Assembly: GCA_009837725.1 (NCBI GenBank) | Contig: VXSY01000079.1 | Coordinates: forward strand, 1 to 39,244 | Direction: 5' to 3' | Length of the DNA: 39,244 bases | DNA from: Gammaproteobacteria bacterium | Lineage (GTDB): Bacteria; Pseudomonadota; Gammaproteobacteria; Pseudomonadales; Azotimanducaceae | Notes under the pieces: model-generated | The model's input: only the letters and a program-made list of their open reading frames with translations | Databases searched by the model: none | What the model was told of the DNA's origin: nothing | Shown: positions 34,009 to 35,880 of the stretch, one piece after another | How the letters are laid out: the number at the start of each line of letters is the position of its first letter | Position numbering within the stretch: position 1 is the stretch's first letter | Made by a program: the position numbers and the translations under genes

Positions 34009-34132
34009 CGGTGTTCGACCCCCTCCCTTTGGAACCCGCGCAGACTACCCTACGGAGGCCTGCTTGCATTCGAGGTAGCAGCCGCGGCGGGGGACGCCGG
34101 GCCGTATACGCAATCTGCTCCATGCGAGAGTG

Positions 34133-34157
34133 CCGCAGAAGGCGTACGCTTCTGCGG
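34133..34157. repeat. 25-bp imperfect palindrome upstream of the PhyH gene
   Basis: CCGCAGAA (34133-34140) and TTCTGCGG (34150-34157) flank GGCGTACGC, itself a palindrome with one extra base. It could be an operator for PhyH (start 27 nt on) or another repeat. The ATCTGCTCCATG stretch just before it also occurs at 21045-21056 and, with one change, at 23954-23965. Confidence 0.45.
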
Positions 34158-34183
34158 TTGGACACGCAGCGGCAACCAAACGC

Positions 34184-35107
34184 ATGGATACGCAACCGCT
34201 CATCGAGCACATGACCCACTTGCGCCGGCTGGCGCTCGCCAAATACGAGGCGGACCCGCTACCCACCGGCGAAGCGGCGAGGCAGGCGCTCGATGGCGAG
34301 ATCGAAGCGCAGGGCCTCAAGGCGGCCGTCGCGGATCTAGAAACCAAGGGCTATGCGGTGCTGCCCCCGGGCAAGGCCAAACCGCTCGCGTTCTTCGACG
34401 AGTTGCGGGAGACGCTGCTGCGTCTCGCCGAAGACGACACCTCGCGCAATCTCGGCGCCGAGTCCGGCCTCGGCAATACGCTCTTCCACCTGCTGCCGCG
34501 GGCCCGGGTCATCGAGGAGGCCCTGCTGGCGCCGGCGCCGCTCGCACTCGTCACCTACCTGCTCGGCTACCGCGCCAAGCTGTCGCAATCCACGGGGCTC
34601 ATCAAGGAAGCAAGCGCGAAGCCGCTGGCGCTGCACGCCGATCACAGCGGCAAGATTCCCGCGCCGTGGCCCTCGGTGGCGCAATACTGCAACGTCACTT
34701 GGGTGACCACCGACTACACCCGCGAGAACGGCGCCGTCTGCGTTTGGCCGGGCAGCCATCGGTTCTGTCGTCCGGTGCCGGCCGATCTCGCAATGGCGCA
34801 CGATCGCGAGGAGGTGGATGTCCTCGAAGTGCCGAAGGGTTCGGTGATCGTCTGGCACGGCAGCCTGTGGCACGGCGCGGTTCCGCGCACGACCGGCGGC
34901 CAGCGCGTGACGCTGGTGCTGCCGCATGTGCGCGACCACGTGCAGGCGCAGGAACTGTATTGGGCCACCACGACGCCGGAGATGGTGGAGCGCAACCCGA
35001 CGCGGTTCTGCGCGCTGATGGGGCTCTATTCCGCCTACCCGTGGCTGCAGGACGGGCCGCCGCCAACGCTGGCCTTGAGCGCGCGTTCGGGGAGCCAGTT
35101 CGAGTGA
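34184..35107 (+). CDS. Phytanoyl-CoA dioxygenase (PhyH) family protein
   Basis: A 307-residue Fe(II)/2-oxoglutarate dioxygenase. Iron ligands are His151 and Asp153 (LHADHSG) and distal His230 (WHGAVPRT), with Arg241 a plausible 2-oxoglutarate anchor. ATG 34184 is used; an earlier frame start (34130) would run through the palindrome. It hydroxylates an unactivated C-H bond of an unknown substrate. Its stop overlaps the GTG of the glutaredoxin-DinB gene (GTGA), so the two are translationally coupled. Confidence 0.92.
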   Translation: MDTQPLIEHMTHLRRLALAKYEADPLPTGEAARQALDGEIEAQGLKAAVADLETKGYAVLPPGKAKPLAFFDELRETLLRLAEDDTSRNLGAESGLGNTLFHLLPRARVIEEALLAPAPLALVTYLLGYRAKLSQSTGLIKEASAKPLALHADHSGKIPAPWPSVAQYCNVTWVTTDYTRENGAVCVWPGSHRFCRPVPADLAMAHDREEVDVLEVPKGSVIVWHGSLWHGAVPRTTGGQRVTLVLPHVRDHVQAQELYWATTTPEMVERNPTRFCALMGLYSAYPWLQDGPPPTLALSARSGSQFE

Positions 35108-35880
35108 CCGACGTGGGTGCAACGGTGCGCCGCGGCGTGCAGGTGTATTGGCAGCCGGGGTGAACCAGTTGCCTTCGCGTGAAGGAGTTTCTCTCCGTGC
35201 GGGGAGTTGCGTTTGAGTCTTGCGACGTTGCTAACGACGTCGACGCCGCTGTCAGGCTACGGGCGTTGGGGGTGCGTTCGGTGCCGGTGGTGGCGGTGGG
35301 GAATGCGGCCACGGGGGCCAAGAGATTCGCCTTTGGCGTGGACCTTCGCGCCGTCGCGGAGCTGGTTGGAGTTCCGTTTCAGGCGAGTCCGGCGCTGCCG
35401 GTAGCGGAACTGAAGCACCGGCTCGGGGCCGCCGTGAAAACGGCGATGCGACTCGTGAGCGAATTCCCGCCGGATCGGCTGCAAGACAAGCTACCGCGAC
35501 GAAATCGCACGTGCCTTGCGCTCGCGAACCACGTCGTCGAGATCGCCGCCGTGTTCCTGCGCGTTTGCGACGGTGCGCCGTTCGACGTGGAGGCGTCGGC
35601 GGCCATTGTGCCGACGGAACTCGGGGTCGCCGAGCTTCGCGTGCGCTCGAAGGCTGTGGCCTTGCGTCTCGACGAGGCGCCGGTGCGGGGCTCGCGGATG
35701 GTGGAGACCTTCTTCGGTCCGCAGCCGCTACACCTTGTGCTGGAACGATGCGCTTGGCACACGATCCAGCACGCCCGGCAGTTGGAGATGATGCTCGCCC
35801 GCACAGGCGTCGCACCAAGCCAGCCGATTCCGCCCCACCTACTCGCCGATTTGCCCCTGCCGCAGGCCGTTTGGGATTGA
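35104..35880 (+). CDS. Glutaredoxin-like/DinB-like fusion with in-frame UGA (candidate selenoprotein)
   Basis: From GTG 35104 (overlapping the PhyH stop) to TGA 35880 the frame codes 258 residues with one internal TGA at 35161-35163. Upstream reads GVQVYWQPG. Downstream reads TSCLRVKEFLSVRGVAFESC, then LGVRSVPVVAVG, a thioredoxin-fold N-terminus in which WQPGCxSC is normal. TGA thus stands for the first redox cysteine (residue 20), giving UxxC with Cys23. The C-terminal part (about 95-258) is a DinB-like four-helix domain ending HTIQHARQLEMML and LADLPLPQAVWD. No frameshift or other stop follows, so the gene looks maintained. A SECIS-like hairpin is at 35191-35206. Alternatives are a simple nonsense mutation, or a sequencing error. 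If UGA is not read, translation from a later start would lose the redox motif. Confidence 0.75.
35191..35206 (+). promoter_or_regulatory. Candidate bacterial SECIS hairpin
   Basis: CTCTCC (35191-35196) pairs with GGGGAG (35201-35206) around the loop GTGC, giving six pairs with one G-U. The loop begins with G and contains GU, and lies 33 nt after the UGA, within the 16-37 nt window described for bacterial SECIS elements. A second hairpin, CCTTC-GCGT-GAAGG (35172-35185), is only 13 nt from the UGA and is less suitable. Confidence 0.45.

Follow-up and report, generated by a model that had tools for sequence, protein, structure and literature searches.

Introduction

A review of 2026 counted 119 families of selenoproteins (PMC13188914); its Table 1 lists the selenocysteine (Sec)-containing glutaredoxin (PF00462, UxxC) as experimentally verified, and glutaredoxins are described there as small oxidoreductases. 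In the parts of the GOS survey drawn on here (PMC2398784), 42 'Grx-like' UxxC sequences are reported, and members of the DinB superfamily are described as low-molecular-weight-thiol transferases in the portions consulted of a review of that superfamily (PMC10950700).

The gene described in this report appears to join the two folds in one chain. It lies in a stretch of 39,244 nucleotides of gammaproteobacterial DNA (contig VXSY01000079.1), referred to below as the window, and its frame is interrupted by one TGA codon at the first position of the glutaredoxin motif. A sequence-only reading of the window had put the gene forward as a candidate selenoprotein, and this is supported by the pairing of TGA and Cys codons in one alignment column, by the Sec machinery of the genome and by a UGA-specific hairpin, all of these comparative. 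Judged from this evidence, it is almost certain that UGA codon 20 would be translated as Sec; the estimate applies to the recoding and not to the function of the product.

Results

The gene and its reading frame

The frame contains exactly two stop codons, both TGA, of which one is codon 20 and the other ends the gene at 35878-35880; it is thus open on both sides of a single internal TGA, with the flanks VYWQPG-[TGA]-TSCLRVKEF as earlier described. The sequence-only reading had also stated that 239 codons following the UGA show no decay; the frame and the domains are indeed intact, while the count to the terminal stop is 238. The long open frame after the TGA is in itself not above chance, because, of the 832 TGA triplets that the window has on its two strands, 35 are likewise followed by at least 238 open codons, and it is the conservation of the TGA in homologues that raises it above chance. 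The start overlap noted before is also present, the GTG at 35104 overlapping the stop codon of the PhyH-family gene (TGA, 35105-35107), and translational coupling of the two genes is possible.

Table 1. Features of the candidate selenoprotein gene and its upstream neighbour; coordinates are those of the window.
Feature	Coordinates	Strand	Remarks
PhyH-family gene immediately 5' of the Grx-DinB gene	34130..35107	+	Start uncertain; stop overlaps the GTG start
GGGGAG, likely ribosome-binding site, 9 nt 5' of GTG	35089..35094	+	Letters read directly; role inferred
Grx-DinB candidate selenoprotein gene	35104..35880	+	GTG to terminal TGA, 258 residues including Sec20; start codon inferred
Glutaredoxin domain, residues 12-66	35137..35301	+	Pfam PF00462; Foldseek 3zit, TMt 0.89
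In-frame UGA, read as Sec20, UxxC position 1	35161..35163	+	TGA/Cys column
Cys23 (TGC), UxxC position 2	35170..35172	+	Invariant in alignments A1 (12 rows) and A2 (30 rows)
SECIS-like hairpin CUCUCC-GUGC-GGGGAG, 6 bp, loop GUGC, 33 nt 3' of UGA	35191..35206	+	-8.0 kcal/mol folded alone
DinB-like four-helix-bundle domain, residues 114-227	35443..35784	+	DinB_2 below cut-off; Foldseek 6iz2, TMt 0.79
His143, putative metal ligand	35530..35532	+	Invariant in 30/30 rows of A2; role inferred
His219, putative metal ligand (HxxxH)	35758..35760	+	Invariant in 30/30 rows of A2; role inferred
His223, putative metal ligand (HxxxH)	35770..35772	+	Invariant in 30/30 rows of A2; role inferred

Conservation of the UGA codon

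Within the genus a match was found in 12 of 16 genomes, the own genome included, and all 12 full-length matches have exactly one stop codon, a TGA; those other than the gene itself are 44-87% identical to the query. The sequence-only reading had named further disabling mutations in close relatives as an objection to its proposal; none of these genes has a second stop. A weak partial match in G014 (locus L023, E 8e-4), with a TAG, was dropped as not being a full-length homologue. In the family, 30 of 206 genomes, belonging to 8 of 37 genera, gave a match at E 1e-10, each with exactly one TGA, and the codon is TGA in all 40 locus records of genus and family, which come from 30 genomes and include some genes fetched twice. 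At E 1e-15 the gene was found in 5 of 390 genomes of the order (the own genome and four of the same family) and in 2 of 398 genomes of the phylum (the own genome and one other), again with one TGA in each case. The gene is rare in these order- and phylum-wide samples.

Among the named loci, taken as the best 80 of 195 confirmed relatives, the codon in the same column is TGA in 60 and TGC or TGT in 20; the DNA patterns used for these loci require KEFLS[AV]R.. or the Cys form, and the proportion is therefore not a census. The earlier suggestions that the TGA occupies the first position of the glutaredoxin CxxC, and that homologues be inspected for UGA or Cys there, were borne out, with Cys codons at exactly that column. 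UGA and Cys rows can be aligned end to end, and the frame is preserved at 36-88% identity. A tree was made from 91 distinct rows with the Sec and hairpin columns removed, and the tool flagged several of its long branches as unsure. The UGA/Cys label requires 3 changes on this tree, against 18.4 in shuffles. By record title the UGA carriers include Reyranella, Enhydrobacter aerosaccus ATCC 27094, Acetobacteraceae metagenome-assembled genomes (MAGs) and Beta- and Gammaproteobacteria, although MAG names may be wrong. One contig of MAG RBC080 has a Cys form, L141, and another has a UGA form, L162.

These data bear on two explanations of the TGA other than Sec. If the gene were a pseudogene, or the TGA a misread TGC or TGT, the codon would be a disabling mutation or a sequencing error. 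Nothing beyond the TGA itself speaks for this, and the same TGA is found in all 30 family matches and in 60 of the 80 named loci, which stem from many projects, in genes whose frame is maintained across the identities given above. Misreading is not a plausible cause, as the codon recurs in independent MAGs and in records of isolates, E. aerosaccus ATCC 27094 being among the carriers. The conserved TGA/Cys pairing refutes this explanation in practice; we give it a negligible probability and take it as effectively excluded. Were UGA reassigned to another amino acid throughout the genomes of these lineages, the apparent read-through in this gene would be explained, but the terminators of the 71 UGA rows, window included, are TGA in 38, TAG in 19 and TAA in 14, which indicates that TGA still terminates. 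In addition, the homologous codon is Cys in 20 of 20 rows without TGA, and a tRNA-Sec is present. With TGA terminators in the very same genes, reassignment is refuted in practice and likewise effectively excluded, its probability being vanishingly small. Translation of the UGA as Sec is the reading that we retain.

The selenocysteine machinery

A check of the own genome (4.66 Mb, 303 contigs) for the Sec machinery, which had been recommended with the original proposal, found all four components: SelA (467 bits), SelB (380 bits), SelD (245 bits) and a tRNA-Sec (67 bits, anticodon tca). SelB adjoins SelA, the tRNA-Sec is on the same contig (C70) and SelD is on another (C108). In the genus, SelA is present in 16 of 16 genomes, tRNA-Sec over cut-off in 14 and SelB over cut-off in 15. 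One genome with a UGA gene (G005, loci L021/L026) gave neither a tRNA-Sec at E 1e-7 nor a SelB over cut-off; its SelA is in two pieces and the genome is 92% complete, and the gap in its Sec system is possibly an assembly gap or a recent loss.

Four genomes of the genus (G002, G004, G010 and G015) have no Grx-DinB match and nevertheless keep SelA, with tRNA-Sec over cut-off in all but G004; other selenoproteins therefore presumably maintain the Sec system there. Partial matches to the SelA family (PF03841, 34-43 bits) were also seen in larger open frames, at G000:C76:13101-13316 and similarly in G007, G009, G012 and G013, and are perhaps other PLP-dependent enzymes.

A wider comparison was made on 42 of the 80 named loci. 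A tRNA-Sec of at least 59 bits was found in 21 of 22 genomes with the UGA form and in 6 of 20 with the Cys form (Fisher p 1e-5). The 59-bit threshold was chosen post hoc from a gap in the scores, and the genome of L102 (56 bits), which is ambiguous, was placed with those lacking a tRNA-Sec; with the family cut-off (47 bits) the contrast is smaller (21/22 against 12/20). Matches of about 42-54 bits were taken as other long-armed tRNAs, since such scores are also given by second matches where a genome already has a tRNA-Sec of 70 bits. The exception among the UGA forms, the genome of L106, has no tRNA-Sec at E 1e-6, and one of the six Cys loci with a tRNA-Sec is L141 of MAG RBC080, which also has the UGA form.

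A hairpin specific to the UGA forms

The bacterial SECIS model in section 5 of PMC13188914 has a loop of 3-9 nt with a G in its first two positions, a stem of 4-16 bp, a spacing of 16-37 nt and a minimum free energy (MFE) of at most -7.5 kcal/mol. The hairpin of the window, when folded alone, agrees with this model in all respects (Table 1), and is absent from the predicted minimum-energy structure when 63 nt are folded together. A search of Rfam with 1001 bases gave no SECIS family, the one match being unrelated and below threshold.

With the T of the codon counted as zero, all 65 distinct UGA rows and 1 of the 20 Cys rows have a GTG within nt 33-44; the GUG-loop hairpin of the UGA forms lies 33-37 nt after the UGA. 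Covariation was evaluated in an alignment (A3) of 45 of the 65 distinct UGA 60-mers, from which 20 near-duplicates, mostly of Reyranella type, had been dropped by eye. A 7-bp hairpin around the GTG is 92.7% paired in these rows, with a covariation score of 0.364 against 0.207 in shuffles (0 of 500 as high) and 39 hairpin cells changed on both sides against 15.0. Two other covariation measures did not exceed the shuffles, namely pairs with a double change (4 against 2.7; 93/500) and further pair types (11 against 10.2; 197/500). Sliding the partners by 1-3 columns lowers the pairing in the UGA rows to 14-47%, and the same columns in the 20 Cys rows are 37.1% paired, no more than shuffles. RNAalifold, unprompted, predicted the hairpin in the UGA set and not in the Cys set. 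When the 57 nt that follow the codon were folded and their energy was set against synonymous shuffles, UGA and Cys rows were not distinguished (mean z -0.52 against -0.17, p 0.18), so that the case for a SECIS element rests on the local hairpin and its covariation.

In the window clade, which has three rows, the hairpin stands 4 nt away from the consensus pairs; it is made up of other codons that specify a similar peptide, and a GUG loop is kept. Identity within the clade is 97-98% over the 60 nt that follow the UGA and 80-88% in the remaining gene, and for conserved residues 18-19 of 20 codons are identical just after the UGA, compared with 115/170, 115/165 and 149/184 elsewhere. The peptide encoded at the hairpin is Ser-x-Arg in all 65 distinct UGA rows, and the hairpin appears to dictate the peptide, a clear case of protein sequence under constraint from RNA structure.

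Unusual tRNAs with a UCA anticodon, which decode UGA as another residue such as Cys, have been described in other systems, and one of these could in principle read codon 20 in place of Sec. We consider this very improbable, since a hairpin that is UGA-specific, SECIS-like and covarying argues against it, as does the occurrence of tRNA-Sec together with SelA, SelB and SelD in the genome. For Sec insertion, the hairpin in the mRNA just 3' of the UGA would hold SelB, which would deliver Sec-tRNA-Sec to codon 20, and translation would go on past this codon to the terminal TGA.

Domains and predicted structure

The N-terminal part of the protein matches the Pfam glutaredoxin family PF00462 over its cut-off (E 6e-10, 39.6 bits against a gathering cut-off of 22.9), and the C-terminal part does not reach the Pfam cut-offs for DinB (DinB_2 PF12867, E 4e-4, 21.2 bits against 24.8; DinB, 12.5 against 23). 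The AlphaFold model of the fusion has a mean pLDDT of 92.3 and a pTM of 0.86. Foldseek placed the N-terminal domain with redoxins, 3zij and 3zit first (TMt 0.85-0.89), and the C-terminal domain with the DinB/YfiT four-helix bundle (6iz2, probability 1.00); among the 50 matches listed, no single one extends well over the two domains, and E is above 0.001 throughout. The predicted structure thus supports a glutaredoxin and a DinB domain. A profile search of PDB sequences found glutaredoxins (best 7c10, E 1.3e-14; 3zij/3zit, E 4e-12) and, weakly, the DinB-like 3di5 (E 0.024). W16, P18, the Sec/Cys column, C23 and the three His residues are invariant in all 30 aligned UGA and Cys rows.

Discussion

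From the sequence, the product is probably a UxxC glutaredoxin fused to a DinB-type domain, in which the three invariant His likely bind a metal. The sequence-only reading knew of no described selenoprotein of this fusion, and the sources consulted agree. Table 1 of PMC13188914 has no glutaredoxin-DinB fusion among the 119 families, and the word 'DinB' does not occur in the portion of that review's text covered, nor in the covered portions of the main texts of the deep-Sep paper (PMC12013277), the 2016 survey (PMC5029168) and the GOS paper (PMC2398784). No model of NCBIfam release 20.0 was over cut-off for the five members tested, and the literature searched, with bioRxiv, many journals and supplementary tables outside its scope, listed none. 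The Grx-DinB selenoprotein family therefore looks undescribed, within a well-known kind, although fragments of it could be hidden among the 'Grx-like' UxxC sequences of the GOS survey as far as that source was covered. It would add one family to the catalogue of bacterial selenoproteins, and its genes would probably be split or cut short at the UGA by standard annotation. The gene is also one possible reason why environmental Proteobacteria, such as the relatives of Reyranella, retain selenium machinery, and with a Sec form and a Cys form of the enzyme, found together in MAG RBC080, the benefit of selenium could be compared directly.

As to function, we tentatively favour an enzyme of glutathione-linked transfer or de-adduction that carries a selenium redox module; this is the most likely possibility in our view, although we would put it somewhat short of an even chance. 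The DinB domain would bind a divalent metal and glutathione and would transfer or remove glutathione on an electrophilic or thiol-adduct substrate, the UxxC module would carry out the redox step, and Sec may make this step faster or harder to inactivate. A glutathione-linked function is favoured because of the glutaredoxin and DinB folds, the invariant His, a glutathione synthetase domain that is present in the own genome, and the thiol transferases described in the portions of PMC10950700 mentioned above. A more specific version is held with a little more reserve, in which the protein would be a Sec-dependent low-molecular-weight-thiol transferase of the DinB class, found in Alpha-, Beta- and Gammaproteobacteria by record title, whose UxxC would resolve glutathione or thiol adducts at the metal site. 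We know of no earlier Sec-dependent member of the DinB transferase superfamily, and if this version is true the protein would be the first one known to us.

Alternatively, the UGA may encode Sec in a UxxC whose main task is to bind or reduce metals or metalloids, the DinB domain having another role. According to the part of PMC13188914 covered, metal binding is a possible role of Sec in SaoB, SaoC and the UXX-star selenoproteins, and the protein has a sub-threshold match to the Uxx_star model NF041212 (31.2 bits against a cut-off of 66). We nevertheless regard this alternative as unlikely, as no mercury or arsenic family is among the 25 most frequent of 91 neighbour families, and the invariance of the three His suggests an active DinB site. 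The neighbours comprised 105 mechanically called ORFs in the 3-kb flanks of 19 UGA loci; no shared partner emerged among those 25 families, the commonest of which accounts for 4 of the 105 ORFs. The PhyH gene is directly 5' of the Grx-DinB gene in the window and in L086. In one carrier, L159, the ORF directly upstream (L159:1271-2950) has a peptide methionine sulfoxide reductase domain (PF01625), so that a gene for a predicted thiol-redox enzyme adjoins the carrier gene there.

The candidate protein can be compared with several known systems. With the DinB/S-transferase-like superfamily, to which bacillithiol transferase BstA and mycothiol S-transferase belong, it shares the predicted four-helix bundle and three conserved His, here putative metal ligands; it differs in its Pfam DinB scores, which are below cut-off, and in that the words selenocysteine and fusion are absent from the part of the review PMC10950700 covered. 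The UXX-star families (NF041114, NF041211, NF041212 and NF047338) and the HUGP/GUXX-star fusion NF045501 are glutaredoxin-like (seleno)proteins as well, one of them a fusion, but have UxxT (family 1) and GxGU (family 2) according to Table 1 of PMC13188914, where the present protein has UxxC. It does not reach the NCBIfam cut-off of any UXX-star model, those other than NF041212 scoring lower still, and none of these models or NF045501 matched the DinB part; its best NCBIfam matches are to the YruB, NrdH and mycoredoxin models, all below cut-off. The solved redoxins 7c10, a glutaredoxin and the best sequence match of the N-terminal domain, and 3zij/3zit (BC3987) are chains of 78-84 residues without a DinB domain, unlike the fusion. 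Another such system is the Sec-containing glutaredoxin, with which the candidate protein has in common the glutaredoxin fold, Sec at UxxC position 1 and UGA recoding, and from which it differs in that its glutaredoxin domain is fused to a DinB-like domain.
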